From NCBI GenBank assembly GCA_016278615.1, contig JADQBM010000072.1:1-39651 (forward strand): 39,651 nucleotides of DNA, given 5' to 3'. A program made the translations under genes and the position numbers. The notes under the pieces were generated by a model, which was not told the DNA's origin, searched no databases, and worked only from the letters and a program-made list of their open reading frames with translations. Origin of the DNA: Clostridia bacterium. Lineage in GTDB: Bacteria > Bacillota > Clostridia > Peptostreptococcales > JAAYPU01. This document shows positions 411 through 16,261 of this stretch, piece after piece. How positions within the stretch are numbered: the stretch's first letter is position 1; the number at the start of each line of letters is the position of its first letter.

Positions 411-1637
411 TTACATCTTTGCAATGATTTCCTTGATTCTATCTTCTGTTATAAGCTCTGTGATTTGCCTCTCAGTTCCATTCTTGCTAATAATAACAGA
501 AGGAATTTTTTTAATATGTAATTTCTCCATAAGCCCTTTTGCTTTATAAATATCTATAATATAGAAAAAATACTGCCCTTTTAATTCTAATTCCATCTTT
601 TCTATCATTTCTAGCAGCTGACTTTGATCCTCTTCAATTGAGTTATAGGCAAAAGTAATGCTTGGCTTTTCTACCTTCATTCTTTTATTTTTAAAGGCTT
701 TGTTCTTAAGTAAATATTTTTCTGCATGGACACTTGCAATTGCCCCATCGCTGGCACAAGTCACCACTTGCCTTAAGAATTTATCTCGGATGTCCCCAAT
801 TGCATAGACGCCTTCGATATTTGTTTCCATATTCTCATTTGTAATAATATACCCCTTATCTGTCATATGAATAATGTCTTTATATATATCCGTATTGGGT
901 ATGTACCCAATAAATTCAAAACAAGTATTGCAACCAATAGCATCTAATTCATTAGTTTTAAGGTTTTTTAAAACTACTTTTTTTAATTGTGTATCTCCTT
1001 CAAAATGATTGACAATGGTATTCCATCGGATTTCTATTTTGGGATTATTTAGAGCAAGATTCTTAAGGTCGTCACTGCAATCTATTTTATCACAGTCCGT
1101 AGTAGCCGATAAAACAACTTTATCTGCAAATTTGGTTAAAAATAAACTTTCTTCAATAGCCATGTCCCCTGAACCAATTACAACAACTACTTTTCCAATA
1201 TTAACTGCCGCATCACAAACTGAACAAAAAGTAATGCCTTTTCCTAAATACTGATCTTCATTTTTTGCTCCAGTCACTTTTGGTCTTCCCCCTGAAGCAA
1301 TAATCACTACTTTGGCTTCATATGTATCTCTATAGGTTCGAATTTTTTTTATTTCTTCTTCCAAATCCACTCCCTGTACATCTGTAAGTCTAAAATTTAC
1401 TTTAAACCGTTTTGCCTGCTGATAAAAAAGATCCATGAGACCTTTACCGGTAATGCCTTCGGGAAAGCCCGGATAGTTCGCTATTTCATTCATATTAATT
1501 GCAAGTCCTCCAACCAGAGCTTGTTCAATAATCAATGTTTTTAGTCCCGTTCGCCCTGCATATATCCCTGCGGTCAAACCTGCTGAACCTCCCCCAATAA
1601 TCACAACATCATACTGCTCAACTTTCTTTTCCCTCAT
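411..1637 (-). CDS. Thioredoxin reductase-like flavoprotein with C-terminal thioredoxin-fold domain (paralogue 1)
   Basis: A 408-residue protein. The N-terminal ~305 residues are a TrxB-type FAD/pyridine-nucleotide disulfide reductase: FAD motif GGGSAG at 15-20, redox pair C138-S-V-C141, nucleotide motif GSGDMA, and a late GD motif. The HRRxxxR arginines that mark NADPH-specific TrxB are absent. The last ~90 residues look like a thioredoxin fold with a cis-proline (KIPSV), but the usual CxxC is replaced (FAYNSIEED). The ATG at 1637 is preferred over 1655 because it has AGGAAGG upstream and matches the start of the paralogue at 9151-10374. It is the last gene of an operon with two TusA-like genes (1740-2288). 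Its job is probably reduction of a protein disulfide or persulfide in sulfur transfer; the substrate is unknown. Confidence 0.85.
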   Translation of the reverse strand: MREKKVEQYDVVIIGGGSAGLTAGIYAGRTGLKTLIIEQALVGGLAINMNEIANYPGFPEGITGKGLMDLFYQQAKRFKVNFRLTDVQGVDLEEEIKKIRTYRDTYEAKVVIIASGGRPKVTGAKNEDQYLGKGITFCSVCDAAVNIGKVVVVIGSGDMAIEESLFLTKFADKVVLSATTDCDKIDCSDDLKNLALNNPKIEIRWNTIVNHFEGDTQLKKVVLKNLKTNELDAIGCNTCFEFIGYIPNTDIYKDIIHMTDKGYIITNENMETNIEGVYAIGDIRDKFLRQVVTCASDGAIASVHAEKYLLKNKAFKNKRMKVEKPSITFAYNSIEEDQSQLLEMIEKMELELKGQYFFYIIDIYKAKGLMEKLHIKKIPSVIISKNGTERQITELITEDRIKEIIAKM

Positions 1638-1684
1638 AACCTTCCTCTCATTCATCTCTTATCTTTCAATTTTCAGTTGTCTTT

Positions 1685-1738
1685 TCATGTTGAATCCGTT
1701 CTGTCCCCTGTCCCCTGTCACCTGTCATCTATACCCTA
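1685..1738. repeat. Degenerate heptamer repeat (CTGTCCC type)
   Basis: About six 7-bp units follow one another: CTGTCCC, CTGTCCC, CTGTCAC, CTGTCAT, CTATACC, CTATCTA. It fills the gap between the TusA-like gene and the flavoprotein gene and belongs to the same period-7 class as the elements at 6231, 10940, 11377, 11791 and 15996. Confidence 0.7.
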
Positions 1739-1739
1739 T

Positions 1740-1967
1740 CTATTTCACTTTTTCTATAATGATTTCCCATTCGCCATCATCTATTTCCTCTATTTCAACG
1801 TGCTGTCCATTCTTTCTTGCCCAGTCAGGCAAATTTTTCATGGCACATATATGGTCTACCTGTACAATTAACACCTCGCCCATATCCAGCTCCTTTAAAC
1901 GATTCTCTGTTTTCACCAATGATTCCGGACATGCGTCCCCTAGACAATCCAATACATATTCTTTCAT
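1740..1967 (-). CDS. TusA-like sulfur-carrier protein with altered CPxP motif (CPES)
   Basis: A 75-residue TusA/SirA-fold protein. It keeps the DCLG lead-in and the active Cys (C13), but the family CPxP motif reads CPES. A third Cys lies in the DHICAMKN segment. TusA proteins carry sulfur as a persulfide on the CPxP cysteine. The start at 1967 is chosen because AGAGGAGC lies 7 nt upstream; a longer reading to 2039 has no ribosome site and no homology to its paralogues. It is the middle gene of the operon 2288-411. Confidence 0.85.
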   Translation of the reverse strand: MKEYVLDCLGDACPESLVKTENRLKELDMGEVLIVQVDHICAMKNLPDWARKNGQHVEIEEIDDGEWEIIIEKVK

Positions 1968-2063
1968 TTCAAAGCTCCTCTCACACATAAAATCCCTCAA
2001 TTTCCTATGATAAGTGAATCCTATATAATTTATATACAATTCTTAATGCATTTATTTCATATT

Positions 2064-2288
2064 TTATGACTTTTCAATGATTATTTCCCACTCACCATCA
2101 TTCACTTCTATGATTTCCACATTGTGCCCCTCTCCTCTTGCCCATACAGGCACCTTGGTTCCTGCACAGATCTGATCAGTTTGGACAATTAGCGCATCCC
2201 CTACCTCTAATTGACTCAATGCCCCTTCTGCTTTTTCCATAGAAACCCGGCAATCCATACCAATACAATCCAATACCAATTCTTTCAT
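2064..2288 (-). CDS. TusA-like protein with degenerate motif (CRVS)
   Basis: A 74-residue TusA-like protein, the first gene of the TusA-TusA-flavoprotein operon. The lead-in reads DCIGMDCRVS, so the cysteine at position 13 is kept but both prolines of CPxP are lost. The C-terminal half (VPVWARGEGHNVEI, NDGEWEIIIEK) closely follows the other paralogues. The ATG at 2288 has GGAGGAA upstream. Loss of both prolines may mean a changed partner or a non-transfer role. Confidence 0.82.
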   Translation of the reverse strand: MKELVLDCIGMDCRVSMEKAEGALSQLEVGDALIVQTDQICAGTKVPVWARGEGHNVEIIEVNDGEWEIIIEKS

Positions 2289-2306
2289 ATTATTCCTCCG
2301 CTTCAT

Positions 2307-2569
2307 ATTTTTATATAATATAATCCAAAAAGGTAAAAATAATAGTAATAGTCAATAAGGATATTATGGGTCCTTCTGCTATACAAAAGTGAATGCCTTG
2401 AGAGGTTTTATTACAAGAATAAGCAATGAAAAAAACAGAAATTGTTGATTTGATTTCATAGAAATGTCATTAGATATCAGCAACTTGAAAATTTTATTCC
2501 TCTTTGCAAATAATAATGATAAAATATTTACATTGACTTGTTATATAATATTTTAGTAGGAGCGTTAAT
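2307..2569. other. Divergent promoter region, AT-rich
   Basis: A 260-bp gap between the TusA operon (minus) and the ABC importer (plus). TATAAT-like sequence occurs at 2542-2547 close to the start of the importer. I see no clear operator. Confidence 0.4.
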
Positions 2570-3538
2570 ATGAGATGTAGGATAAAATATATTGTTTTTT
2601 TAATTATATGCTTATTTGTTATTTTTTTCAATATAGGATGTACAGAAAAACAAGAAATAAATGATATTTCCATCGCTGAACAATATGGACTTGCTTATGC
2701 GCCCATTCAAGTCATGAAAGAAAGACAAATGCTGGAGAAGAAACTTCCTGAAGATACAATAATAAATTGGGTGAAGCTTGTGAACACAGCTGCTATAAGG
2801 GAATCCATGATTGTAGGCGATGTAGATGTTGGCTTTATGGCGATACCGCCTTTTTTAATTGGCTGGGAAAAAGGCATGGAATGGAAAATCTCTACAGGAT
2901 TGACATGCAGTCCTATTGGTTTAATAACTTATAAAGAAGACATTAAAACCCTTCACGATTTAAGTCCCCAAGACAGAATTGCACTTCCACAACCTGGTAG
3001 CATTCAGCATATCCTTTTATCTATGGCCGCAGAAAAAATGCTGGGAGATGCGCAGAGGTTTGATAATCAACTCATCAGCATGTCTCATCCAGATGGCATG
3101 CAGGCCCTTATTGTAAAACAAGATGTCTCTGCACATTTTACAGCGCCACCCTATTTGAACCAAGAATTGAAAATCGAGGGTATGCACCAAATTCTTAGTG
3201 GAAAGGAAGCCATGGGCAAGGATTTTTCTTTTATTGTTGGGGCTTCTACCCTAAGATTTCATGATAACAACAAAGAATTATATGATATATTTTTTACGAC
3301 TTTAAACGAAGCCATAACATTTATTAATGTACACCCCCAGGAAGCCGCTACCCTTTTATCCGAAATTTATGATATGAGCCCAGAGGAAACTTTGGATTAC
3401 TTAAAAGATATGGAATATACCACAACAGTTAAAGGTATTTTTGAGTTCTCAGATTTTATGGTGCAGAATGGTTATTTAGAACACTCTTTTGGCCATGTAG
3501 ATGAAGTGCTATTCAAAGGTGTTGCTTATGAAAAATAA
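2570..3538 (+). CDS. ABC transporter substrate-binding lipoprotein, NitT/TauT type
   Basis: A 322-residue lipoprotein. The signal peptide has a lipobox ending in NIGC (Cys about residue 24). The body has the NMT1/TauA-like pattern (SIAEQYGLAYAPIQVMKE; VGDVDVGFMAIPPFL). The family binds sulfonates, nitrate, thiamine precursors and similar anions at the cell surface. TAGGAG lies upstream. It overlaps the permease gene and heads an SBP-permease-ATPase operon. The placement between two sulfur modules suggests a sulfur-containing anion, but the ligand cannot be read from the sequence. Confidence 0.88.
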   Translation: MRCRIKYIVFLIICLFVIFFNIGCTEKQEINDISIAEQYGLAYAPIQVMKERQMLEKKLPEDTIINWVKLVNTAAIRESMIVGDVDVGFMAIPPFLIGWEKGMEWKISTGLTCSPIGLITYKEDIKTLHDLSPQDRIALPQPGSIQHILLSMAAEKMLGDAQRFDNQLISMSHPDGMQALIVKQDVSAHFTAPPYLNQELKIEGMHQILSGKEAMGKDFSFIVGASTLRFHDNNKELYDIFFTTLNEAITFINVHPQEAATLLSEIYDMSPEETLDYLKDMEYTTTVKGIFEFSDFMVQNGYLEHSFGHVDEVLFKGVAYEK

Positions 3539-4295
3539 TATAAGATCATTTTTTTGGGTTACTATGATATTTGCTCTCTGGCAAATTGTGTATTTAACAA
3601 AGACTTTTCCAGAAGTTCTATTCCCCTCTCCAACCTCAGTCATCACGTCACTGTTGGATGCAATCCTTGATGGCTCAATGATACAAGCGATTGGGTATTC
3701 TTTATGGGTTATCTTCATGGGGCTATTTATCGGGGTTTTCTTAGCCGTTTCATTTTCTTTTCTTTCTATTCGATGGGAAGTCTTTGAAAGCTTTATTAGA
3801 ACCTGTATCTCCATCGCACATCCTCTTCCTGGTATCGCACTGCTTCCCTTGATTATTTTATGGATTGGTACAGATTCTAAAGCCATTATTTTTATTATTG
3901 TTCACTCGGTGTTATGGCCTTTAGCATTAAACCTCCTTACAGGTTTTCAAGCTGTTCCGGAAATATACATTCAGGTTGGTAGAAATATCGGCTTGTCCAG
4001 ATTAAAAATGATGCTTCATATTTATCTGCCAGCCTCTCTTCCATTTTTTATTTCTGGTTTGAAAATTTCTTGGGCAAGAGCATGGCGCGCTCTTGTAAGT
4101 GCAGAAATGATATTTGGTGCTGCCGGTGGCATAGGCGGTATTGGCTGGCTTATTTATAAAAATAGAGTTTTTATGGATACCGCAGGCCTTTTTGCCTCTA
4201 TCATCGTCATTATCTCAATTGGTATTATGGTTGAAAACTTATTATTCGCTTTCATAGAGAAAAAAACACTTAAGAAATGGGGAATGCATTCATGA
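3528..4295 (+). CDS. ABC transporter permease, NitT/TauT (SsuC-like)
   Basis: A 255-residue inner-membrane protein with about six hydrophobic segments and the EAA-loop region (AVPEIYIQVGRNIGLSRLKM). The start at 3528 is preferred to 3501: AAAGGTG precedes it and it gives the short overlap with the binding-protein stop that is typical of coupled genes. It forms the channel for the binding protein at 2570 and pairs with the ATPase at 4292. Confidence 0.88.
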   Translation: MKNNIRSFFWVTMIFALWQIVYLTKTFPEVLFPSPTSVITSLLDAILDGSMIQAIGYSLWVIFMGLFIGVFLAVSFSFLSIRWEVFESFIRTCISIAHPLPGIALLPLIILWIGTDSKAIIFIIVHSVLWPLALNLLTGFQAVPEIYIQVGRNIGLSRLKMMLHIYLPASLPFFISGLKISWARAWRALVSAEMIFGAAGGIGGIGWLIYKNRVFMDTAGLFASIIVIISIGIMVENLLFAFIEKKTLKKWGMHS

Positions 4296-5047
4296 GTCCC
4301 TTGTTAAGAGTTGAACATTTATACAAATCTTATTTTAACAATGATGAAAAGAAAGAGATAATACATGACTTGAATCTCAATGTATTTGAGAAAGAGTTTA
4401 TTTGCATCCTTGGAAAATCGGGATGTGGGAAGTCAACATTACTTAAGACCATTGGAGGATTTGATACAGACTATCAAGGCATTATTGAAGAGAATGGTTT
4501 ATTGATTACTTCTCCATCAATAGAAAGAGTTATGATCTTTCAAAACACTAACCAACTACTACCATGGAAAAGTGTCCTGGAAAATATCGTTTTTCCTCTT
4601 AAAGCACAATATTCTCATTTTAAAAAAGAAATCCTTCAAACCATTGCCAAGGAATATATGAGCTTGGTAGGAATGAGTGCCTTTGCAGATTACTATCCCT
4701 ATCAACTTTCTGGGGGCATGAAGCAGAGAACAGCCTTAGCAAGGGCTCTTGCATTAAAGCCATCTATTCTTTTAATGGACGAGCCTTTTAGCAGCTTAGA
4801 TGCCATGACACGTTCTTCTCTTCAAGACTTACTTACTGAAATTTGGCAGAAAGTGAATTCTACCATATTATTTGTTACACACGATATTGAAGAAGCCATG
4901 CGGCTTTCAACAAAGATAGTGGTGATGGATTTTGCACCTAATTCCGTTAAAGGTATTATTAAGAATGACTTATCTTTTCCAAGAGGAGATTTAAATGAAC
5001 AATACATTGCTCTGAACTATGCAATCACCCAGTTATTATATAAATAA
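4292..5047 (+). CDS. ABC transporter ATPase, NitT/TauT (SsuB-like)
   Basis: A 251-residue ATPase. It shows Walker A (GKSGCGKST), Q-loop (QNTNQLLPW), signature LSGGMKQR, Walker B ILLMDEP and the switch histidine in VTHDIEEA. The ATG at 4292 overlaps the permease stop as ATGA and has GGGGA upstream; an in-frame ATG at 4277 is less likely. It energises the importer of this operon. Confidence 0.9.
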   Translation: MSPLLRVEHLYKSYFNNDEKKEIIHDLNLNVFEKEFICILGKSGCGKSTLLKTIGGFDTDYQGIIEENGLLITSPSIERVMIFQNTNQLLPWKSVLENIVFPLKAQYSHFKKEILQTIAKEYMSLVGMSAFADYYPYQLSGGMKQRTALARALALKPSILLMDEPFSSLDAMTRSSLQDLLTEIWQKVNSTILFVTHDIEEAMRLSTKIVVMDFAPNSVKGIIKNDLSFPRGDLNEQYIALNYAITQLLYK

Positions 5048-5058
5048 AAAAAGTGGGC

Positions 5059-5094
5059 TAATATAATAGAAAATCTATATTTCCTATTATATTA
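5059..5094. repeat. 36-bp palindrome, copy 2
   Basis: Same element as 55-90: arms TAATATAATAGAAAAT and ATTTCCTATTATATTA around CTAT, with one mismatch between the arms. It lies just after the ABC operon. Confidence 0.85.
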
Positions 5095-5097
5095 AAA

Positions 5098-5140
5098 ATA
5101 GAACGGCTTTCTCAAGGAAAACCGTTCTATCTATCTTTTT
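5098..5140. terminator. Bidirectional terminator between convergent operons
   Basis: Inverted repeat AGAACGG..CCGTTCT with inner pairs (TTTC/GGAAA) at about 5099-5129, followed by a T-rich stretch on the plus strand and A/T-rich sequence on the other side. It lies between the ABC ATPase and the rhodanese gene, which converge. Confidence 0.7.
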
Positions 5141-5151
5141 ATTTCTATTTA

Positions 5152-6099
5152 CTATTGTACGACTTCAAACCCTTCATTTGCCCATCCACTTGGATCCGTA
5201 ACAGGGGTTCCCATACCGGACTTAAGTGAAACAGCATCATAACCTAACGCTCTTAGTCCTCCAACCGTTTGACCTGCTGTTTGGCCACTGTAGCAATAAA
5301 TGACGATTGTTTTGTCCATGGGAAGATCTCCAAAGCTTTCTTGCATTCCAGCAACAAATGGGATATTGATAGCGCCAGGAATATGTCCAGCTGCATAGTC
5401 TTCTGCTTGTCTAATTGAAACTACATAATAGCTAGTATCTTCTGCATCCATAAGCTCCTTTAAATCTGCGGCAGGGATAATATTGTTGCCATATGATGCA
5501 TTCATATTATCAAAGTAGCTTCCAATCATTTCAACAAATTCTGAATCTAATTCACTTCCTTGTGGTTCATCAAATACAGCCACATCTGTTGTTATAATAT
5601 CTTCGAAACCTTCAACCTTACTGATTCCTAAATTATAACCATATTTTACTGATTGTACATCATATCCAGCTATCTTAAGAAGTCCCACAGTTTGTCCTGC
5701 AGTCTGTCCTGTGTAACAATAAACATATATGGTTTCATCCATTGGAAGACTATCCAAATTATCCACCAAAGCGCTTGTATTCCAAGGTACATTGATGGCT
5801 CCAGTTACATGACCTTCGGCATAAACGTCTGCCTGTCTAATATCCAAAATGAATAACTCTTCTCCGGCTTGAACCTTAGCTACAAAATCTTCATTTGAAA
5901 CAATAATTTTTGGTAACTCAGCAAAGAACGCATTTGCAGCATCTTCGACGCTAACGGTTGACTCTTCAACGGGTGTTTCAACTGGTGTGTCAGCATTGGT
6001 ATCTTCTGCAGGTGCATCCGATCCGCCACATGCTGCCAATGAAAACACTAACATTAAAGCAAGTAAAACTGCAAATATTCTTTTTCTCTCTAAAAACAT
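5152..6099 (-). CDS. Surface lipoprotein with two active-type rhodanese domains
   Basis: A 315-residue protein with a lipoprotein signal (SLAAC), an acidic linker rich in Asp/Glu/Pro/Thr, then two rhodanese domains. Both carry an active cysteine in matching loops (YCYTGQTAGQT and YCYSGQTAGQT), and both have the DIRQ/SIRQ-AEDYAAGH entry motif. Rhodaneses move sulfane sulfur through a cysteine persulfide. The second ATG (6099) is chosen because GGGAGG lies 9 nt upstream, while the ATG at 6108 abuts that site. The protein is expected on the outer face of the membrane, where it could accept sulfur for the nearby transporters. Confidence 0.88.
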   Translation of the reverse strand: MFLERKRIFAVLLALMLVFSLAACGGSDAPAEDTNADTPVETPVEESTVSVEDAANAFFAELPKIIVSNEDFVAKVQAGEELFILDIRQADVYAEGHVTGAINVPWNTSALVDNLDSLPMDETIYVYCYTGQTAGQTVGLLKIAGYDVQSVKYGYNLGISKVEGFEDIITTDVAVFDEPQGSELDSEFVEMIGSYFDNMNASYGNNIIPAADLKELMDAEDTSYYVVSIRQAEDYAAGHIPGAINIPFVAGMQESFGDLPMDKTIVIYCYSGQTAGQTVGGLRALGYDAVSLKSGMGTPVTDPSGWANEGFEVVQ

Positions 6100-6230
6100 A
6101 TTATTCATCCTCCCTATTGTTGTTATATTTTTAACATATCGGCTAATGTCATTATATCATTAAATAATTACTGCTATATCATTGATTCTTCAATGCAGTA
6201 TAAGAAAAAACGATAGCCTGTGCGATCAAG

Positions 6231-6460
6231 AAGAGAGATAATAGATAACAGATAAGGTAGAAGAGAGATAAGAGATAAGAGATAACAGATAATAGATAAT
6301 AGATAATAGTTATGGTTAGTTTTGTGTTCACAAAACTTTCATTTTATGTTTTTCTTAAATTGCAGATTTTGTATAACAAAATCTGCCTCAACTTTTATCT
6401 ATTATCTGTTATCTATTATCTATCCTTTGTTCTGTTATCTGTCATCTATTATCTATAATT
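6231..6460. repeat. Heptamer-arm repeat element (GATAATA type) with two-hairpin core
   Basis: The left arm is a run of 7-bp units (GAGATAA, CAGATAA, TAGATAA). The right arm is its complement (TATTATC, TGTTATC). The core holds hairpin AGTTTTGTG/CACAAAACT (6318-6337) and a second hairpin CAGATTTTG/CAAAATCTG. It fills the gap between the two rhodanese genes, so the RNA or DNA strand could fold into one long structure. Confidence 0.75.
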
Positions 6461-6486
6461 AAAAAACCCCCAAATGGGGGTTTTTA
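6461..6486 (-). terminator. Intrinsic terminator of the 6484-7404 gene
   Basis: Stem AACCCCC/GGGGGTT with loop ATTT, followed by T residues on the minus strand. It begins at the stop codon. Confidence 0.8.
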
Positions 6487-7404
6487 GGAATTATCTTGCT
6501 GGTTGGGTTGAACTGGTGGTAAATCTTCAGATTGTTGTTGGGGGAGAGAGTCGTCAGAAGTATATTCCAGCCAAGCACCATCGTATAATTTTAGATTTCT
6601 ATAACCTGCATTATACAGTACAAGATAAGTTTGGGCTGCTCTTATAGATGTTTTACAATACATAATACTGGTATCCTCTGGGACAACTCCATTTTCAATA
6701 TACATAATTTGCACATCCTGAACAGAACGATATTCGCCATTTGGATAATTATTATTTATATAATCTATATGAATAGACGTAGGTATGGTACCCGAATCAA
6801 ATTCTTCCTTTGTTCTTGTATCTAAAAACTTTACCCCTTCTTTAGGCTCATTAATTTGTGCCTTAACCTCATCCAGGGTTGCAATCATCTCTGTATTTTT
6901 ACTGTCAATTTCATAAGAAGCCTCTGAAACGGTAGTGTTATCCTTGGATACCTGAGCACCTGCTTCTACGAGTGCTTTCAATCCTCCACTTACAACCTTA
7001 ACATTTTCATGCCCATATACCTTCATGGTCCACCAAAGTCTCGCAGCATCCATATTATTGTTATCATCATAAATAAGAACCATTGAATCATTTGAAATTC
7101 CTGCTTTACCAAGAGTATTGCCCACTTGGTCTGCAGGAGCTAACATATTGGGAACCGGATCTGAAACAACAATGTCTTCTCTTTCAATATTTACAGCACC
7201 CTGGACATGCCCTTTGTCCAAATAAACACTATTTTTTTGAGTATCTACCATAACGACGCCTTCATTACTAGCCATACTTAGGGCAGTATCTGCTGAGATA
7301 ATCTCAGTGCCTGTTTCATCAAATTCGTATCCACCGCATCCTGTTAATGAGAGTATAAATATTAGAATCAGTAAAAACCCAATTGGCCTTGTTTTTCTAA
7401 TCAT
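6484..7404 (-). CDS. Surface lipoprotein, tandem rhodanese (thiosulfate sulfurtransferase type)
   Basis: A 306-residue protein with a lipoprotein signal (SLTGC) and two rhodanese domains in SseA/TST order. The N-terminal domain lacks the catalytic cysteine (its loop reads IYDDNNNMDAAR). The C-terminal domain has it (MYCKTSIRAAQ), with a six-residue TST-like loop. A Gln/Pro-rich tail ends the protein. The ATG at 7404 is chosen for GGAGG 8 nt upstream; the one at 7419 overlaps that site. It probably handles thiosulfate or a persulfide outside the membrane. Confidence 0.87.
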   Translation of the reverse strand: MIRKTRPIGFLLILIFILSLTGCGGYEFDETGTEIISADTALSMASNEGVVMVDTQKNSVYLDKGHVQGAVNIEREDIVVSDPVPNMLAPADQVGNTLGKAGISNDSMVLIYDDNNNMDAARLWWTMKVYGHENVKVVSGGLKALVEAGAQVSKDNTTVSEASYEIDSKNTEMIATLDEVKAQINEPKEGVKFLDTRTKEEFDSGTIPTSIHIDYINNNYPNGEYRSVQDVQIMYIENGVVPEDTSIMYCKTSIRAAQTYLVLYNAGYRNLKLYDGAWLEYTSDDSLPQQQSEDLPPVQPNQQDNS

Positions 7405-7573
7405 TTGGGACGCCTCCATTCTATTTTTTGTTATTTTAACTTATTATATGGGATATATCGTGACCCCGCTTATTTGTTGTCCTGTTTTTTATGTTTATAT
7501 GAGATCATCCAGTATGCTAAAATAATGATATAATAAATGAGTTAAATGAAGAAAGAATAAACGAGGTTATCAT

Positions 7574-9133
7574 ATGCAAATACCAGATCGTATCCATAAA
7601 AATCCAGATATTGTTTTTTATATATTCATCCTTCTTTACACCTTCATTCATATTCTCTTCATTACAGATTTTCCCTTTGTTCATTCAGATGAATCCTGGC
7701 TCAGTGGACTGAGCCGAAATATTTTATCATCAAAGGATTTGTCCGTAACGGAACCTTTTTTTAATCTTTATCCAAGAAATCCTCATGCCATTAAAACGCT
7801 TTTTCACTTGATCCAAGGAGCAGTTATCCAAGTTTTTGGGTACAGTCTTTTTAATATGCGTTTGATATCTCTTGCCTTTGGTGTCCTGTTCCTTTATTTT
7901 TTCTATAAAACAGGGCGTTATCTGTTTTCTCCATGGATTTCTTTATTAGCCACGTCCATTTTTGCATGGGATATTCAGTTTATTTATGCGTCACATTTTG
8001 CACGTCAAGAAAACCTATTGGTCTTTGTTTTCATGGCTGTATTTTATTATCATGTAAAGCATATGAATCACTTGTCCAAAAAACATGCCATCATTTCAGG
8101 TCTTGTTATTGGTACGAGCATTGGAATTCATCCCAACAGTTTTATCATCGCCTTACCCTTTGTCTTCATTTATGCCTATCTGCTTCTGAAGAAAAAAAGG
8201 AATGGCGCTCTTGTTTTGTCTTTTATTGCAACCTTGGGAATCTTCGCATTCTTTTTTATCGTGTTAAGTTTCTCTTTCAATCCCACTTTCATCTCTGATT
8301 ACACAGCCTATGGACAGACATTAGGTGTTACAAATTCTTTACCAAGTAAGTTCATACAGCTCAAAGACTTCTTCTTAAAACTCTATTACGGAATCAGTGG
8401 TACTTACTATACCCCCAATATAAAGTTTCAGTTTGTTCTTTTCGTCGCTTCATTGTTTTTATCGCTGTTTGTATTTATAAAAGATAAAAATCAAACAACC
8501 CATGAATTCATACTTCTTTGTTATTTGTCCATAGCGGGGATTCTATGTGGCATTATTCTTATTGGTCGTTTCAATGCAACTAGCATCATCTTTTTGTTTC
8601 CATTGCTTTATCTATTGTTATTTACTCTTTTAACAAAAATTCCAACTTCAATCAGAATTACTTCTATGACCATCATCCTCTTAATGGTTGCCATGAATAG
8701 TGCCCAAAATATCTACCCCTATACACAAACAAGCTATGGGTATTATTTGGATGAAATCGGCAATACCGTGCCAAAGGACAGCATTGTTTTAGCCAATCTA
8801 AATTGTGAATACTATTTTGACAACCATAAGTTATTGGATTACCGTAACTTAGCTTATTTAGAAGAAAACAAAATGACCTTTTCTGATTTTATAAGAAAGA
8901 ACCATATTGCCTATATTATCTACCCAGAGGAAATGGATTTCATCTACAACAACCGTCCTGTATACAACGGTATATATGGCAACTTATACCCCTATTACGA
9001 GGACATGCAACAGTTTTTACAAAACAACTGTCTATTGATGGATTCATTTTATTCTCACTACGGTATGCGCATCTCCCGCTATTTTTTAGACAAAGAATGG
9101 CATGTGAAAATATATCAAGTGAAGCCGGATTAA
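7574..9133 (+). CDS. GT39/PMT-like membrane glycosyltransferase (ArnT-related)
   Basis: A 519-residue protein with about ten hydrophobic segments and a long C-terminal soluble part. The first outer loop has the acidic motif VHSDESWLSG, as in GT-C enzymes that use polyprenyl-phosphate sugars. It is a single gene facing the flavoprotein gene at 9151. GAGG lies upstream of the ATG. The acceptor is unknown; a link with the GT2 at 15243, which could make the lipid-linked donor, is plausible but not proven. Confidence 0.75.
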   Translation: MQIPDRIHKNPDIVFYIFILLYTFIHILFITDFPFVHSDESWLSGLSRNILSSKDLSVTEPFFNLYPRNPHAIKTLFHLIQGAVIQVFGYSLFNMRLISLAFGVLFLYFFYKTGRYLFSPWISLLATSIFAWDIQFIYASHFARQENLLVFVFMAVFYYHVKHMNHLSKKHAIISGLVIGTSIGIHPNSFIIALPFVFIYAYLLLKKKRNGALVLSFIATLGIFAFFFIVLSFSFNPTFISDYTAYGQTLGVTNSLPSKFIQLKDFFLKLYYGISGTYYTPNIKFQFVLFVASLFLSLFVFIKDKNQTTHEFILLCYLSIAGILCGIILIGRFNATSIIFLFPLLYLLLFTLLTKIPTSIRITSMTIILLMVAMNSAQNIYPYTQTSYGYYLDEIGNTVPKDSIVLANLNCEYYFDNHKLLDYRNLAYLEENKMTFSDFIRKNHIAYIIYPEEMDFIYNNRPVYNGIYGNLYPYYEDMQQFLQNNCLLMDSFYSHYGMRISRYFLDKEWHVKIYQVKPD

Positions 9134-9146
9134 AGTAATCCGGCTT
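9122..9146. terminator. Hairpin between convergent genes
   Basis: Perfect 10-bp stem AAGCCGGATT/AATCCGGCTT with a 5-nt loop, overlapping the stop of the glycosyltransferase gene. No long T-run, so it may act weakly. Confidence 0.5.
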
Positions 9147-9150
9147 ACAG

Positions 9151-10374
9151 TTACTTAAGTGCTTTTAAAAGCGATTCCTTAGAAATATTCTCTGTTATAA
9201 TACAATCCACTTTGCCATCTTTAATAATGGCCACAGCAGGATATTCTTTGACACCCAATCTATTGGCAAGGCCTTTTGATTTGTAGACGTCGATCTTACT
9301 GAAATAATATTGGTCCTTGTAGTCAAGTTCCATTTTTTCAATCTCAGAAAGTAGTTCCCTCTGATCTGCTTCAATGGCATTAAATACATAAGCAACGCCT
9401 GGTTTATCTTCTTTCATAACATGGCTTACGAATGCTTCACTTTCAGCGATGTATTTTTCAGCGCCTACTCCCGCAGTTGCACCATCACCTACACAAGTTG
9501 CCACTTGTCGAAGGTATCTGTCTCGAACATCCCCTACTGCATAGACCCCTTCCACATTGGTTTCCATATTTTCATTGGTAACAATATATCCTTTGTTTGT
9601 TATATCAATGAGGCCTTTAAAAATATCTGTATTGGGAATGTATCCTATAAATTCAAAGCAAGTATGACAGTCAATTGGGATTAGTGCCTCTGTTTTTAGA
9701 TTTTTAAGAACAACTGTCTTAAGTTCTTCATCCCCTTCAAAGTGGTCTACTACCGTGTTCCATTGGAATTCCATTTTACTGTTTGCTAATGCAGCTGCTT
9801 TTGCTATTTCATTACAATCCATTTTTCCCTCATCATGAATGATGGATACAACCACTTTATTTGCGAACTTTGTTAAGAAAATACCTTCTTCTATGGCTGC
9901 GTCTCCAGATCCAATGACCACTACAGTTTTGCCAGTATTGGCTGCTGCATCACAAGTTGCGCAAAATGCTATACCCTTACCTAAATAATCTTCTTCTTTA
10001 TCCGCACCAGTCACTCTTGGTCGTCCACCAGAGGCAATAATAACTACTTTTGCCTCATATATATTTCTAAAGGTCTCAACTTTCTTAATTTCACCTTCTA
10101 ACTCAACTTTTCTCACATCTGTAAGCTTAAATTTAACATCAAATTTTTTAGCCTGCTGATGGAAAAGCTCCATTAACCCTTTCCCTGTTACGCCTTCTGG
10201 GAAACCTGGATAATTTTCTATCTCATTGGTGTTGGTTGCAAGGCCGCCAACCAAAGCTTGTTCTATAATCAAAGTACTAAGTCGTGCACGTCCAGCATAG
10301 ATAGCAGCTGTCATTCCTGCTGCACCTCCACCTATCACGACAACATCATATTGTTCAACTTTTTTTTCTCTCAT
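9151..10374 (-). CDS. Thioredoxin reductase-like flavoprotein with C-terminal thioredoxin-fold domain (paralogue 2)
   Basis: A 407-residue paralogue of 411-1637. FAD motif GGGAAG 15-20, redox pair C138-A-T-C141, nucleotide motif GSGDAAIEE near 156-163, GDVRD near 281. The NADPH-type arginine motif is not present at about 175-190 (VVVSIIHDEGK). Residues ~322-407 look like a thioredoxin fold with a cis-proline (YPAV, about 379) but FNAIEADQ in place of CxxC. AAGGGAG precedes the start. It is the last gene of the YeeE/YedE-TusA operon. It probably reduces a persulfide or disulfide on a carrier protein; whether it takes electrons from NADH, ferredoxin or the adjoining proteins cannot be told. Confidence 0.86.
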   Translation of the reverse strand: MREKKVEQYDVVVIGGGAAGMTAAIYAGRARLSTLIIEQALVGGLATNTNEIENYPGFPEGVTGKGLMELFHQQAKKFDVKFKLTDVRKVELEGEIKKVETFRNIYEAKVVIIASGGRPRVTGADKEEDYLGKGIAFCATCDAAANTGKTVVVIGSGDAAIEEGIFLTKFANKVVVSIIHDEGKMDCNEIAKAAALANSKMEFQWNTVVDHFEGDEELKTVVLKNLKTEALIPIDCHTCFEFIGYIPNTDIFKGLIDITNKGYIVTNENMETNVEGVYAVGDVRDRYLRQVATCVGDGATAGVGAEKYIAESEAFVSHVMKEDKPGVAYVFNAIEADQRELLSEIEKMELDYKDQYYFSKIDVYKSKGLANRLGVKEYPAVAIIKDGKVDCIITENISKESLLKALK

Positions 10375-10387: not shown

Positions 10388-10921
10388 TTACATAAAGTAT
10401 TTTACTAACAATTTACTCCCTACCACTGCTCCAAAGAACATAAAGAAAGCAAAGACCCAACCAGAAAGCGAAAGTGACGCGATGCCGCTAAATAAAGCGC
10501 CAATGTTACAGCCATAAGCTATTCTTGCACCATACCCCATTAGAAGGCCTCCGAAAGCTGCAGCAACAATCTGTTTTTTTGATTTTATTTTCTTTATCTT
10601 AAACTGTGAAGCCGCCAAAGTAGCAAAAAGAGCTCCGAAAATGATTCCTAAATTTCTTAAACTTCCAGGGTCGTTGAGCAGCCCCCCGTCTAAGGTAGCT
10701 TGAGCACCTGAACTACTAAAATAGTACCACCGATCTACACTTCCTCCTACTGCCTCAAACATCCAAGCACCCCAATTTGCAAACACCCCAGAGACACCCC
10801 AGGGATTTCCAGAGGTTGCAAACGTTACAATTTGAAAAAGAGAAAGCAATATAGCGCCTGTAATATAAGGCCATGCATCTTTAAACCACTTCTTGTAAAA
10901 TTTATTATCTTGTAGTTTCAA
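10388..10921 (-). CDS. YeeE/YedE-family half-transporter (C-terminal-type half)
   Basis: A 177-residue membrane protein with about four or five hydrophobic segments and the family signature YGCNIGALFSGIASLSLSGW near 133-152. Its start codon is TTG at 10921, supported by AAGGAGG 8 nt upstream. Full-length YeeE/TsuA is about 350 residues; here two half-size proteins, this one and 11977-12672, are encoded by the same operon, as in the PmpA/PmpB type. The family imports thiosulfate or related sulfur species by passing them along membrane cysteines. Confidence 0.85.
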   Translation of the reverse strand: MKLQDNKFYKKWFKDAWPYITGAILLSLFQIVTFATSGNPWGVSGVFANWGAWMFEAVGGSVDRWYYFSSSGAQATLDGGLLNDPGSLRNLGIIFGALFATLAASQFKIKKIKSKKQIVAAAFGGLLMGYGARIAYGCNIGALFSGIASLSLSGWVFAFFMFFGAVVGSKLLVKYFM

Positions 10922-11135: not shown

Positions 11136-11360
11136 TTACACTTTCTCTATAACAACTTCCCATTCTCCATCATCTACTTCTTCGATTTCTACGTTGTGAC
11201 CATTTTTTCTTGCCCATTCTGGAACATTTTTCATGGCACAACTGTGATCAATCTGTACAATGAGTAGGTCTCCAACTTCAATTTCTTTCAATGCATTTTC
11301 TGCTTTAATTAAAGGCACTGGACACGCTTCACCTAAACAATCTATTGTAACTTCTTTCAT
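11136..11360 (-). CDS. TusA-like sulfur carrier (tandem copy 2)
   Basis: A 74-residue TusA with an intact CPVP motif (DCLGEACPVPLIKAE) and a second conserved cysteine in DHSCAMKN. It differs from the copy at 11550-11774 at only a few residues (TI/ML near the start, V/A near residue 30). AGGAGGG precedes the ATG. It would accept or hand over sulfur as a persulfide for the half-transporters and the flavoprotein of the operon. Confidence 0.93.
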   Translation of the reverse strand: MKEVTIDCLGEACPVPLIKAENALKEIEVGDLLIVQIDHSCAMKNVPEWARKNGHNVEIEEVDDGEWEVVIEKV

Positions 11361-11376: not shown

Positions 11377-11536
11377 ATTTAATTAATAATTAATAATGAA
11401 TAATTAATAATTATGGTCAGAAATTTTGCTTTCAGCAAAATTTCTACCGATTTCTTTCATTTCTCTTTTTATAAAATTGACGTTTTGGAACAAAACCTTC
11501 CTCAATTGTTCATTATTCATTGTTCATTGTTCATTC
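11377..11536. repeat. Heptamer-arm repeat element copy B
   Basis: The left arm has TAATAATG-like units, the right arm GTTCATT/ATTCATT units. The core has a perfect 12-bp hairpin AGAAATTTTGCT/AGCAAAATTTCT (11419-11445) and a second hairpin GTTTTGGAACAAAAC. It is nearly identical to 11791-11942. Confidence 0.78.
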
Positions 11537-11549: not shown

Positions 11550-11774
11550 TTACACTTTCTCTATAACAACTTCCCATTCACCGTCATCTACTTCTTCAAT
11601 TTCTACGTTGTGACCATTCTTTCTTGCCCATTCTGGCACATTTTTCATGGCACAGCTGTGATCAATCTGTACAATAAGCAGATCCCCTGCTTCAATTTCT
11701 TTCAGTGCATTTTCTGCTTTAATCAAAGGTACTGGACACGCTTCACCTAAACAATCTAACATAACTTCTTTCAT
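11550..11774 (-). CDS. TusA-like sulfur carrier (tandem copy 1)
   Basis: A 74-residue TusA with CPVP and DHSC cysteines, almost identical to 11136-11360. The ATG at 11774 has GGAGG 8 nt upstream; the ATGs at 11780 and 11789 are too close to or ahead of that site. Together with the neighbouring repeat it makes a tandem duplication of roughly 410 bp. Confidence 0.93.
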   Translation of the reverse strand: MKEVMLDCLGEACPVPLIKAENALKEIEAGDLLIVQIDHSCAMKNVPEWARKNGHNVEIEEVDDGEWEVVIEKV

Positions 11775-11790
11775 AATCATTACCTCCATA

Positions 11791-11942
11791 AATTTAATTA
11801 AGAATTAATAATGAATAATGATGGTCAGAATTTTGCTTTTAGCAAAATTTCTACCGATTTCTTTCATTTCTCTTTTATAAAATTGAGGTTTTGGAACAAA
11901 ACCTTCCTCAATTGTTCATTATTCATTGTTCATTGTTCATTT
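11791..11942. repeat. Heptamer-arm repeat element copy C
   Basis: Same architecture and nearly the same sequence as copy B (core hairpin with TTTTGCT/AGCAAAA, then GTTTTGGAACAAAAC, then GTTCATT units). It is located between the first half-transporter and TusA copy 1. Confidence 0.78.
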
Positions 11943-11976
11943 ACCTACCTCTTCTACTTAAACTTAAACTTCAACT

Positions 11977-12672
11977 TCAATTTTCGCTTTGGCTTTTTCT
12001 GTTTTCCCATTTATCTGCTAAAATATAGAGTGTTGCGATAATTAACAGATTAACCAATAAGCCTCCTACCCAGCCAAATATATCTGGTAAGAATACTGCT
12101 TTTCCTTTTAAAATAAAGTTTAACTTCCACCAACCAAAGTGATAAGCACCCAATAGTGATCCTAAAATAAAAAATCCAAGGGTTAACACATTCATAACGA
12201 ACCCTTCTCCAACTCTCATCAAGGTGCCTGATGCACACCCCCCTGCGATTACCATCCCGATACCAAACATAAAGGCTCCTATGGCAGTTGCAAAACTAAT
12301 AGGGGCAATATAACTTTGCCCTGGAATTGGAAGTCCGTTTACATAATATCCGTATTTAATCGCAGTAAAACCTATTGTCGTCATAGCAAATGCAATCAGA
12401 ACTGCTCTTGTGACAGAAGTACTTCCAGTTAAATATGGATCTCTCATGGATGCAGTAAAACAAAACCTGGACCTTTGCAAAATAAAACCAAAGCAAGCTC
12501 CTGTCATCCAAAATAACGCAACTTGGGCATCCTTAGTGATGAGATATGCTGCAAATGCGACTAGAAGTATGATCAATACAGTTGCATGAGGAATCATATT
12601 CTTTTTTGGTTTTCTAGAGCTTCCAGCTCTTGAACTCCTGCGTATACTCTGAGCACTTTGTGCTTCAGCCAT
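11977..12672 (-). CDS. YeeE/YedE-family half-transporter (N-terminal-type half)
   Basis: A 231-residue membrane protein. A basic N-terminal tail of about 30 residues precedes five or six hydrophobic segments. The family motifs RSRFCFTASMRD and GGCASGTLMRVGEG each hold a conserved cysteine. The ATG at 12672 is chosen because AGGAGGTG lies 6 nt upstream; an in-frame GTG at 12681 is part of that ribosome site. It heads the operon that continues through two TusA genes, the other half-transporter and the flavoprotein, and is divergent from the LysR gene. Confidence 0.87.
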   Translation of the reverse strand: MAEAQSAQSIRRSSRAGSSRKPKKNMIPHATVLIILLVAFAAYLITKDAQVALFWMTGACFGFILQRSRFCFTASMRDPYLTGSTSVTRAVLIAFAMTTIGFTAIKYGYYVNGLPIPGQSYIAPISFATAIGAFMFGIGMVIAGGCASGTLMRVGEGFVMNVLTLGFFILGSLLGAYHFGWWKLNFILKGKAVFLPDIFGWVGGLLVNLLIIATLYILADKWENRKSQSEN

Positions 12673-12745
12673 CTGCTTCACCTCCTAAATGATATTTTAT
12701 TAACAATCTTGTTTTAATTTTAACACAATATCAAGTCACCATTAT

Positions 12746-12898: not shown

Positions 12899-13795
12899 AT
12901 GCATATAGAAAATTTTGATTACTTTTATCAAGTTGTTAAGGCAAAGAGTATTTCAAAAGTTGCAAAAAAACAGCATATTTCTCAATCTGCACTAAGTCAA
13001 CAAATTCAAAAATTTGAAGAGAGTATTGGTGTTGACTTATTAGAAAGAAGTAATAAAGGCGTTACTCTAACGCCAATGGGTGAAGTGGTTCTAAAATATT
13101 CAGAAAATATTATTAGAACCTATAATAAAATGTTAGCAGAAATTGATAGTGGTATAGAAAATACTGCAGTTATTAAAATCGAAGCCAACTATGCCATTAC
13201 AGATTATTCTCTACCTTGCACCCTTTATAAAGTTAAAGAAAAATTTGGTTATCATAAATATGAATTAACTTCTAATTCTTTCGTTGATATTGTGGATAAT
13301 GTCATCAATAACATCTGTGATGTAGGCTTTATTTATGGATCTCCCGATTCCGACGAATTACAAATTGAGAAGGTCGGAAGCAATACTGTGGTACTCATCT
13401 CAAACAGTGAGAAAAAAATCAAGTCGCCTATTCATCTTCAAGATTTGTTTAATTACCCTCTGATCACTTTAAATGATAAGTATGAAATGAAGAACACATT
13501 AAAGAAAGATTTAATGCGTTTGGGTTATAGTTACGATGATTTGAATATTGTATTTGAAACAGATTCCATTGAAGCCTTGAAGTCTTCTGTTGCGAGAGGA
13601 CACGGTCTTGGATTTATCCCATATATAGCTGTTAAAGAGGAACTCTATAGAAAAAAGTTTGATATCGTAGAAATACAAGATTATAATATGAACCAAAATG
13701 TATATATGATTAGTAAAGAAGGGCAAAAAAAGAACAAAGCCGTCAATGAATTTATTGATGCCTTTAAGGAAATTGGAAGTAGTAGTTTTTGTTAG
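12899..13795 (+). CDS. LysR-family transcriptional regulator
   Basis: A 298-residue protein. A winged HTH fills residues 1-60 (SISKVAKKQHISQSALSQQI), followed by a linker helix and a periplasmic-binding-like effector domain. GAGAGGG precedes the ATG. It is transcribed away from the half-transporter-TusA-flavoprotein operon, the usual place for a LysR activator, and the inverted repeat at 12746-12772 fits as its site. It likely senses a sulfur metabolite, as CysB and CysL do; this is inference. Its stop directly abuts the stop of the TusA gene at 13796. Confidence 0.9.
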   Translation: MHIENFDYFYQVVKAKSISKVAKKQHISQSALSQQIQKFEESIGVDLLERSNKGVTLTPMGEVVLKYSENIIRTYNKMLAEIDSGIENTAVIKIEANYAITDYSLPCTLYKVKEKFGYHKYELTSNSFVDIVDNVINNICDVGFIYGSPDSDELQIEKVGSNTVVLISNSEKKIKSPIHLQDLFNYPLITLNDKYEMKNTLKKDLMRLGYSYDDLNIVFETDSIEALKSSVARGHGLGFIPYIAVKEELYRKKFDIVEIQDYNMNQNVYMISKEGQKKNKAVNEFIDAFKEIGSSSFC

Positions 13796-14023
13796 CTATA
13801 AGACTGTTATGAATATTTCCCAAACACCATTTATAACTTCTTCTTTTTCTATTTTGACTTTTGCTCTTTTGAAATTATCTGTTACAGACTCTACCACACA
13901 ACTGTGATCTGAGATAACTTTCAGAGTATCTCCACTTTTCATGCTCTGGAGTTCTTTTTTTATTCTAAGAACAGGAATGGGACAGATTTCGCCAAAACAA
14001 TCTAACTCGCGATCACGATTCAT
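13796..14023 (-). CDS. TusA family sulfur carrier, canonical CPIP (fifth paralogue)
   Basis: A 75-residue TusA with CFGEICPIPVLR and DHSC motifs. It is the most divergent from the other four (C-terminal half VTDNFKRAKVKIEKEE) and closest to the ordinary TusA family. The ATG at 14023 has AGGTGA upstream; the GTG at 14032 is within that site. It converges on the LysR gene with no gap. Confidence 0.88.
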   Translation of the reverse strand: MNRDRELDCFGEICPIPVLRIKKELQSMKSGDTLKVISDHSCVVESVTDNFKRAKVKIEKEEVINGVWEIFITVL

Positions 14024-14103
14024 TACTCTCACCTGCTGTTTTTATATATTATTATCATATACAATATTATATATTATCCTCATTGATAATCAAGGTGGTA
14101 AAA

Positions 14104-15243
14104 ATGGAAATACCTTTTAATAAAATCTACTTAACCGGTAATGAAGAAAAATATGTATCCCTTGCTATTCTTAATATTGATGCACAAAAATATACCCATG
14201 GCTGTGCAGAATGGATTAAAAATCATATGAATGCCTATAAAGTCTTCATGACCTCATCCGGAACCTCTGCTCTTGAGGTCGCTCTTAACGCATTGGAAAT
14301 AGATAAAGGAGATGAAATTATTCTGCCTTCTTTTACCTTTCCCTCCACTGCAAACGCTGTTTTATTAGCAGGAGGAACCCCTGTTTTTTGCGAGATTAAT
14401 TCCAGTACTTTATGCATGGATTATGATGACTTTGATTCCAAAATGACTTCTAAAACAAAAGCTGTCATTCCTGTTCATTATGGTGGCAATGCCTATGCAC
14501 TTGATAAAATACTTCAACTTGCAAGGACCAAAAATCTATATGTTGTTGAAGATTCTGCCCATGCTTTTGGCGCTTCTTATCTCAACAAGCCCTTAGGAAC
14601 TTGGGGGGACATGGGAATATTTAGTTTTCATTCAACTAAAAACATTACCTGCGGAGAAGGCGGTGCCCTTCTACTGAATACTAAAAATGAATCTATAAAT
14701 AATCAAGTGGATTCCCTTTATCACAATGGAACCAACCGAACTGAATTCCTTCAAGGTAAAACGCCCTACTACAACTGGCAAAACTTAGGTCTTAACCCTC
14801 ATCCTTCAGAATTATCTATGGCTTTCCTTTATAGCCAGCTCATAGCTTCTAAGGCTCTGACCTTATCAAGACAAAGCGCATATAAAAAGTACCAAGCTTA
14901 TTTTTTAGATGCTCAAAAAAGGCATTCCTGTATTGAATCTTACTCCCAAGAAAGTAGAAAGGCCAGTAGTAATTACCACATCTTTTATGTTGTTTTTGAA
15001 TCAAATAATATAAGAGATTTTATGATGAACCAAATGAAAGAAAGGGGTATTTCTGCTGCTTTTCATTTCATGCCTTTGCATAGCTCCGAAATGGGACAAA
15101 GTTTAGGATACAAGCATACGGACCTTCCCATAACCGAAAAAATTTCCAAATGTGTCCTGAGATTGCCACTTTACAATTATATGAGGGAAGAAGAAACAGA
15201 ATATATCATTGAAATAGTTGACCAGCTATTGAGGGATTTGTGA
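14104..15243 (+). CDS. DegT/DnrJ/EryC1 family PLP-dependent sugar aminotransferase (WecE-like)
   Basis: A 379-residue enzyme of the nucleotide-sugar aminotransferase family. It has SSGTSALEVAL (phosphate-binding turn), EDSAHAFG (aspartate facing PLP) and FHSTKN, where K179 is the expected Schiff-base lysine. The family adds an amino group from glutamate to a keto sugar bound to a nucleotide. The ATG at 14104 has AAGGTGG upstream; a TTG at 14083 lacks one. Its stop overlaps the next start as TGATG, so it is coupled to the GT2. Possible product: an aminodideoxysugar for a surface glycan. Confidence 0.87.
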   Translation: MEIPFNKIYLTGNEEKYVSLAILNIDAQKYTHGCAEWIKNHMNAYKVFMTSSGTSALEVALNALEIDKGDEIILPSFTFPSTANAVLLAGGTPVFCEINSSTLCMDYDDFDSKMTSKTKAVIPVHYGGNAYALDKILQLARTKNLYVVEDSAHAFGASYLNKPLGTWGDMGIFSFHSTKNITCGEGGALLLNTKNESINNQVDSLYHNGTNRTEFLQGKTPYYNWQNLGLNPHPSELSMAFLYSQLIASKALTLSRQSAYKKYQAYFLDAQKRHSCIESYSQESRKASSNYHIFYVVFESNNIRDFMMNQMKERGISAAFHFMPLHSSEMGQSLGYKHTDLPITEKISKCVLRLPLYNYMREEETEYIIEIVDQLLRDL

Positions 15244-15995: not shown

Positions 15996-16130
15996 AGATA
16001 ATAGATAACAGATAATAGATAAGAGTTAAGGTAAGTTTTGCTGAAGCAAAACAATCGATATTATATATAATCAAAATTTTGTTTATACAAAGTTTTTTCC
16101 TTAATTCTTAATTCTTAACTCTTGAAGCCC
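15996..16130. repeat. Heptamer-arm repeat element (AGATAAT / CTTAATT type)
   Basis: The left arm has AGATAAT/AGATAAC/AGATAAG units. The core has GTTTTGCT/AGCAAAAC-like and AAAATTTTG hairpins. The right arm has CTTAATT units and CTTAACT. Here the outer arms use different words, but the inner AAGAGTTAAGG pairs with CCTTAA and TTAACTCTT. Confidence 0.65.
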
Positions 16131-16135
16131 TAGCA

Positions 16136-16202: not shown

Positions 16203-16261
16203 CAGTTAATTCTTAATTTTTGTATTTATCATCTTACCAAGTTATATAAAAAGGAGTCGCC

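Follow-up and report, generated by a model that had tools for sequence, protein, structure and literature searches.

YeeD, a TusA-like protein, splits thiosulfate via a cysteine with release of sulfide (PMC11073785), and the available text of that paper does not say which donor supplies the electrons for removing the persulfide on the TusA/YeeD protein. In Thermotoga maritima, yeeE lies in a unit with dsrE and tusA homologues and is up-regulated 42.6-fold on thiosulfate (PMC9431562). Fusibacter species, including the thiosulfate reducer Fusibacter tunisiensis, carry out thiosulfate reduction with no phsA/psrA, glpE, tsdA or dsrAB detected, and the accessible part of the report leaves open the route from thiosulfate to sulfide in such fermenters, its authors also suggesting disproportionation (PMC10386464). 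In this study, we describe two thioredoxin-reductase-like genes, TRXL1 and TRXL2, in a stretch of DNA of 39,651 nucleotides from a Clostridia bacterium (assembly GCA_016278615.1, contig JADQBM010000072.1, positions 1 to 39,651), which as a whole is called the window. TRXL2 lies in one operon with tusA and a split yeeE, and both proteins join a thioredoxin reductase (TrxR) core to a thioredoxin-fold domain devoid of its CxxC. We propose, as a reading that we regard as evenly balanced, that TRXL is an NADH-dependent reductase of sulfur-loaded TusA acting behind a split YeeE importer. The two genes and their main motifs are as follows.

411-1655, minus strand: TRXL1, an open reading frame of 414 aa, paralogue of TRXL2 with the same architecture by alignment
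414-686, minus strand: C-terminal thioredoxin-fold domain of TRXL1, by alignment, with EEDQ at the place of CxxC
9151-10374, minus strand: TRXL2, an open reading frame of 407 aa, TrxR core plus redox-dead thioredoxin-fold domain
9154-9423, minus strand: C-terminal thioredoxin-fold domain of TRXL2 without CxxC (Pfam, separate fold model and structure matches)
9361-9372, minus strand: TRXL2 residues 335-338, EADQ, site of the lost thioredoxin CxxC
9799-9846, minus strand: TRXL2 residues 177-192, SIIHDEGKMDCNEIAK, acidic substitute for the NADPH-selecting HRRxxxR
9952-9963, minus strand: redox-active CATC of the TRXL2 core (C138, C141), by alignment

The two paralogues share 65% identity. In TRXL2, residues 1-315 form a FAD/NAD(P)-type thioredoxin reductase core (Pfam Pyr_redox_2, E 3.1e-44) and residues 318-407 the thioredoxin-fold domain. 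The core matches the TrxR of D. radiodurans by sequence (1e-79) and is closest by structure to those of D. radiodurans and Thermosipho (Foldseek 7.6e-39, Z 40), with an FO-like predicted shape. Against the NTR model TIGR01292 both proteins score 312-313 bits, below the cut-off of 343 bits, and membership of AhpF_homolog (TIGR03143) was rejected, since 314.7 and 318.6 bits miss a cut-off of 687.65; a PHROGs search returned only an unhelpful label. The same genome also encodes an ordinary TrxB that has retained HRRDELR.

Around TRXL2, the operon and its divergent neighbours comprise the following genes.

10388-10921, minus strand: split YeeE/YedE, C-terminal half (PF04143, profile 165-310; Pfam)
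11136-11360, minus strand: operon TusA copy a, with CPVP (sequence motif)
11550-11789, minus strand: operon TusA copy b, with CPVP (sequence motif)
11977-12681, minus strand: split YeeE/YedE, N-terminal half (PF04143, profile 1-160; Pfam)
12899-13795, plus strand: divergent LysR regulator, best NCBIfam match selenium-metabolism LysR, below cut-off
13796-14032, minus strand: divergent TusA-like protein beside LysR (sequence comparison)

Further TRXL loci were found by two short peptide patterns, 80 of 215 confirmed loci being kept, a sample and not a census. The 57 TRXL loci counted here include one record twice (L091 is L056, with an identical protein), and L108 and L124, the latter with a stop codon, were left out of the sequence set. 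Among the matches listed, the hosts include Clostridia, Paenibacillus and Spirochaetales, and named carriers include Moorella mulderi, Thermovorax, Anaerospora, Youngiibacter and F. tunisiensis, in which the locus is complete (L091). Because the motif and domain pattern of TRXL recurs across the 57 loci, it is not due to chance. TusA is found in 52 of them, the N- and C-terminal halves of YeeE in 50 each, LysR in 43 and the small divergent TusA-like gene, convergent with LysR, in 39; as the loci differ in length, counts of neighbours are lower bounds. The divergent TusA-like protein is possibly a sensor partner of the regulator. In 52 of 57 loci the gene directly upstream of TRXL, in the same orientation, encodes YeeE, as C-terminal half or at full length, a count that misses L044 (open reading frame called too long) and L095 (contig end), and L041, L042 and L095 are without TusA at contig ends. 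For some open reading frames the 5' end is uncertain. By comparison, 50 ordinary TrxB loci held no YeeE, TusA twice (distant) and LysR twice, with 10 of these 50 loci shorter than 8 kb vs 3 of the 57 and medians of 17.5 and 17.0 kb. Both the CPxP cysteine and an HSC cysteine are present in all 65 operon TusA copies.

The same linkage was seen among 148 relatives. TRXL is present in 24, only that of G002 being without the thioredoxin domain, and is set off from ordinary TrxB by a clear gap in identity (60-82% vs 48% and lower); orthologous YeeE-N (at least 57% identity) occurs in 23, 21 of which are also TRXL genomes. In G056 and G079 the two halves of YeeE are adjacent, operon TusA and TRXL are both absent and the divergent TusA is kept, and G001 has the order TRXL-TusA-TusA-TRXL with no YeeE nearby and no YeeE-N match at 1e-15. 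TRXL follows TusA; the two genomes with joint loss are few, yet the direction is clear.

The regulator raises the question of selenium. An operon in which a YedE-like protein imports, a TusA/YedF-like protein carries, and TRXL reduces selenite or a selenium carrier for SelD would agree with the best match of the LysR protein and with matches to the YedE and YedF models, all of them below cut-off, and selD is present in 23 of the 24 TRXL genomes among the relatives, which speaks for selenium and against our proposal. However, the presence of selD does not discriminate, because 124 of the 148 relatives have it, and among 18 further TRXL genomes (one record identical to G078) four are without selD above cut-off (G169, G250, G349 and G501), the first of them a single-contig, 100%-complete genome. 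A general selenium role of the operon is therefore unlikely, and we consider the selenium reading as a whole quite improbable.

As to the electron donor, 58 distinct TRXL sequences were aligned and compared with 50 TrxB rows. The initial annotation had stated that both paralogues keep the CxxC of TrxB and that HRRxxxR is missing, and the family agrees: the CxxC (CATC in TRXL2, CSVC in TRXL1) is invariant at C138 and C141 in 58 of 58, and HRRxxxR, the motif for the 2'-phosphate of NADPH, is found in none of the 58 vs 37 of the 50 comparison rows. At the arginine sites stand acids, D or E at residue 181 in 56 of 58 and D at residue 186 in 57 of 58, so that the motif reads HDxGxMD(C/A)NE, and the GxGxxA loop is kept at residues 155, 157 and 160 in 58, 57 and 58 sequences. 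Acids at the 2'-phosphate site of TrxR and AhpF proteins favour NADH over NADPH, and since acids occupy that site in TRXL, NADH rather than NADPH would be the donor. The initial annotation had left the choice between NADH and reduced ferredoxin; because the arginines became conserved acids while GxGxxA stayed, NADH appears likelier and is the better guess, and ferredoxin was rejected as first-choice donor in view of the retained loop. A ferredoxin-dependent enzyme of the FFTR kind would account for the absence of HRRxxxR and would suit hosts that, by the genera named, we take to be largely anaerobes, but the arginines were swapped for conserved acids and not randomly lost, the loop persists, and PDB 6gnd (FFTR by its entry title), 6gna and 6gnc (presumably also FFTR entries) score 92-98 bits vs 271 for an ordinary TrxR. 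We thus hold this possibility to be very improbable. The alignment also revealed a family cysteine: Cys187 was tried as universal and rejected (48 of 58), the near-invariant one being Cys239 (58 of 58 vs 3 of 50 comparison TrxB rows).

The C-terminal domain of TRXL2 is recognised by the Pfam Thioredoxin model (E 1.2e-7), that of TRXL1 only at 6.8e-3, under the cut-off. The AlphaFold model of TRXL2 has a mean pLDDT of 92.7 and a pTM of 0.85; since Foldseek and VIA comparison of the full model covered only residues 4-315, residues 318-407 were folded separately and gave a pLDDT of 91.4 and the order beta-alpha-beta-alpha-beta-beta-alpha. This domain matches thioredoxins in Foldseek (4.5e-7), in VIA-align (best Z 13.9 to a designed thioredoxin, natural ones from 12.8) and in profile comparison (designed 1.9e-16, reconstructed 7.5e-10, natural 7.9e-9). 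Structure prediction of the protein alone thus recovered, in residues 318-407, the thioredoxin fold with replaced CxxC that had been claimed from the sequence, and the cis-proline said to remain is seen as Pro379 in 53 of 58 rows, cis by homology. The register of the lost CxxC, residues 335 and 338, is fixed by two Spirochaetales proteins from metagenome-assembled genomes (MAGs) that retain it, L070 (10949-11218, CELC) and L094 (8679-8939, CVNC). Both cysteines occur in these 2 of 57 domain-bearing TRXL sequences, neither from the window; an acid (D or E) stands at position 335 in 52 of the 57, the residues counted at position 338 are S (34), C (9), D (8) and Q (5), and R339, D362, Y364, K365 and P379 are strongly conserved. 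L070 and L094 are nested in the tree among TRXLs without CxxC, the motif being either kept or regained. A role of the fused domain as dithiol redox partner is very unlikely.

The ends of the protein vary in a few loci. In L041 and L042 cysteine-rich tails with several CxC and CxxC follow the thioredoxin domain, and L058 (9848-10801), from a genome of the same family, encodes a TRXL of 317 aa without the domain on a 12.7-kb contig from which TusA and YeeE are absent.

The closest relatives of TRXL were met on an Endozoicomonas MAG contig (L102), where a protein with the same fusion, HDEGVMD and a domain free of CxxC is followed by trxA and glycine/betaine-reductase genes, the Grd names being our reading, backed by Pfam GRDA matches in or beside such loci (G356 and G463). 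The L102 protein has matches in 132 of 398 Bacillota genomes (E <= 1e-85), TRXL and some ordinary-length TrxBs included; among the matches listed, most are frames of about 400 aa without a stop and the weaker ones are TrxB of ordinary length. In total 53 loci of the L102 type were read (12, 40 and L102 itself), 10 of which are TRXL with YeeE/TusA and 43 form a sister clade, called GRD, with a Grd gene in 30, a TrxA-like gene in 38 and no Grd gene matched in 13.

The wider alignment was made without 13 long-branch comparison loci and a duplicate L102 row, the tree dropped 2 of 147 rows because their cores were short, and the trees were without FFTR sequences. TRXL forms one clade (SH-aLRT 99-100). 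In the tree of 145 TrxR cores, TRXL (66 sequences, SH-aLRT 100) and GRD (43, SH-aLRT 97) are each split off from the rest by a single branch, and another branch, of moderate SH-aLRT (80), separates the full set of 109 fused proteins from the remainder. HRRxxxR is present in 1 of 43 GRD rows, 40 of 43 have D at residue 186, and both CxxC cysteines are found in none of the 42 rows that show the domain. The two clades differ at Cys239 (67 of 68 in the wider TRXL set vs 0 of 43 GRD, which has V, I or L in 43 of 43) and at R339 (64 of 68 vs 0 of 43, with L, I or M in 38 of 43 and never Arg), and the strict D-x-Y-K of TRXL has Y364 and K365 in 65 of 68 each. Since the sister clade shares the fused domain, its lack of CxxC and mostly the acidic motif, these features are probably older than the partnership with TusA, and a TusA-specific origin of the redox-dead domain was rejected. 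The initial annotation had seen in the domain a docking arm for TusA rather than a redox partner; its second half holds in so far as a dithiol role is unlikely with CxxC lost, an invention for TusA is contradicted by the sister clade, and docking of TusA on the domain remains conceivable because the TusA branch has conserved domain residues of its own, such as R339.

Fused TrxBs with no Grd gene in the stretch read are L170, L171, L172, L175-L180, L183, L194, L196 and L198; several have an adjoining TrxA-like gene, L171 has two such pairs, and the gene that follows in L194 encodes a 605-aa protein partly like TrxA. These 13 loci may represent a further, third setting in which the fused proteins occur.

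The frequent TrxA-like genes (38 of 43) and Grd genes (30 of 43) beside the sister proteins, which carry the same redox-dead domain and mostly the same acidic motif, suggest another reading, namely that TRXL is a glycine-reductase-type thioredoxin reductase of a TrxA encoded elsewhere, with TusA and YeeE merely co-regulated; in agreement with it, GrdA is present in four tested TRXL genomes (G003, G009, G078 and G487). However, only 3 of 57 TRXL loci yielded a stand-alone TrxA-like open reading frame, a weak match kilobases away and not adjoining TRXL, and 10 further TRXL loci yielded none, TusA and TRXL are jointly absent from the YeeE operons of G056 and G079, and GrdA was absent from the window genome, G001 and G169 in a search of nine genomes of which six have it, both grd-locus genomes included. 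We therefore judge this alternative unlikely, and because of the rarity of TrxA-like genes at TRXL loci the simplest reading would be that TusA took the place held by TrxA in the sister systems.

In our proposal of TRXL as reductase of TusA, the split YeeE, as two half-transporter subunits, would import a sulfane-sulfur anion, most likely thiosulfate, and the CPxP cysteine of the operon TusA would accept the sulfur, forming a persulfide or S-sulfonate. The second TusA cysteine (HSC) might then attack, with release of sulfide or sulfite, and leave a TusA disulfide; such internal resolution, with the disulfide passed to the CxxC of TRXL, is conceivable because all 65 TusA copies have two cysteines. 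Electrons would pass from NADH to FAD, to C138/C141 and to TusA, as from TrxR to thioredoxin. The CxxC-less fused domain, which probably goes back to an ancestor shared with the glycine-reductase-type TrxBs, may act as a non-redox binding surface whose former active-site loop was re-tuned (N332, D335, R339, D-x-Y-K). In sum, we infer that NADH is the donor, that TusA is the direct substrate, that thiosulfate is imported and sulfide produced, and that the domain serves in binding.

Several points weigh against this proposal. Linkage with TusA points to the substrate only indirectly, and since TrxA is presumably the substrate of the sister family, a thioredoxin whose gene lies elsewhere might still be the substrate of TRXL. 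YeeE is absent from L037, L058 and L084 though these loci are not cut by a contig end, and L058 and L084 are also without TusA. Some members may be redox-active in the domain, given the CxxC kept in L070 and L094, and the AlphaFold model of TRXL2 was built from 39 sequences, without cofactor or partner. The authors of the T. maritima study ascribe that case to another reductase, NSR (PMC9431562), and sudhAB in three Fusibacter genomes offers a competing explanation there (PMC10386464).

The window holds a second set of genes at TRXL1 and a wider island of further genes.

1740-1967, minus strand: TusA paralogue 1 beside TRXL1, with CPES for CPxP (family scan and motif)
2064-2306, minus strand: TusA paralogue 2 beside TRXL1, with CRVS for CPxP (family scan and motif)
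2570-5047, plus strand: three genes of an SsuABC-like ABC importer, the binding protein scoring below the cut-off of its SsuA-family model
5152-6108, minus strand: rhodanese-domain protein A, judged by eye an exported lipoprotein
6484-7419, minus strand: rhodanese-domain protein B, judged by eye an exported lipoprotein
7574-9133, plus strand: PMT-type membrane glycosyltransferase, wider island
14083-17515, plus strand: DegT-type aminotransferase, ArnC-like GT2 and ATP-grasp ligase (families assigned by scanning homologues in L044, L048 and L051)

TusAs of the TRXL1 kind, with CPES and CRVS/CRIS for CPxP, occur only in the window genome and G001 (L037, 6478-7285) among the loci examined, and by their motifs these two genomes have a second, diverged TRXL-TusA set. 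The island (window 2570-9133 and 14083-17515; L037-L059 and L064-L096) surrounds the core also in Spirochaetales (L070 and L095). Its genes were counted in the 57 loci as ATP-grasp 33, GT2 30, SsuA 27, PMT 24, RhodB 16, DegT 15 and RhodA 12, with none of the seven in 18 loci, and it resembles a pathway for an envelope glycan that is linked with sulfur uptake. Between the tandem TusA copies lies a repeat of about 150 bp (window 11387-11535 and 11795-11950), a dispersed intergenic element with 97 matches in the genome at E <= 0.001, mostly partial.

A literature search for a thioredoxin reductase tied to TusA, YeeE and their kin found no description in the accessible texts, subscription papers and preprints being outside its scope. 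TRXL might, in a wider claim that we put forward tentatively and with somewhat more doubt than belief, be the first dedicated TusA reductase, a cytoplasmic chain from NADH via FAD and CxxC to TusA coupled to the split YeeE importer, in which a sulfur carrier replaces thioredoxin as substrate and which would be the missing thiosulfate or sulfane-sulfur reductase in Clostridia and Spirochaetes that live by fermentation, Fusibacter for example. A search at 1e-60 for AsrC, the anaerobic sulfite reductase subunit, gave no match in the window genome and matches in 34 of 148 relatives. A reductase that accompanies TusA offers a single testable gene for both the sulfide route of Fusibacter and the clearance of persulfide from TusA/YeeD; if true, TRXL would fill a step so far unassigned in sulfur-reducing fermenters. 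The finding also adds a TrxR branch, widespread in Bacillota, in which the thioredoxin domain has been retired and the nucleotide site probably takes NADH.

Among known reductases, NTR shares with TRXL the FAD fold, the redox CxxC and GxGxxA, and TRXL differs in the absence of HRRxxxR and in its extra domain. In the TrxR-Trx fusion of the M. leprae type the fused thioredoxin is active and has its CxxC, whereas the window TRXLs are without it and only 2 of 57 in the family have it. FFTR likewise is without HRRxxxR, but the FFTR-type TrxB1 of C. difficile is without both NAD(P)H motifs (PMC10880999), whereas GxGxxA is present in TRXL and the similarity of FFTR in sequence is far weaker than that of ordinary TrxR. 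The glycine-reductase-type TrxB is nearest, with a TrxR core, GxGxxA, an acidic HDEGxMD-like motif in most, a CxxC-less C-terminal thioredoxin fold by alignment and a small partner gene alongside; it differs in its separate clade, in residues 239 and 339 and in its partner, TrxA instead of TusA, the neighbours in the window and in TRXL loci being tusA and yeeE and not trxA and grd. Its studied relative by operon is C. difficile TrxB3/TrxA3, and TrxB3 is reported with HRRxxxR (PMC10880999).

On the side of sulfur transport, the YTD cluster of sulfur disproportionators shares a yedE-related gene and tusA with the window (PMC12998232), but it has a dsrE-related gene and hypothetical proteins, and the word thioredoxin is absent from the main text of that report. 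Membership of the TsuA and TsuB models was rejected, as the NCBIfam cut-offs were missed. The window nevertheless has in one operon, like YeeE-YeeD (TsuA-TsuB), a PF04143 transporter and a TusA-like partner with CPxP, and its YeeE consists of half-transporters as do PmpA/PmpB (PMC11582611); what sets the window operon apart from both is the flavin reductase that follows.

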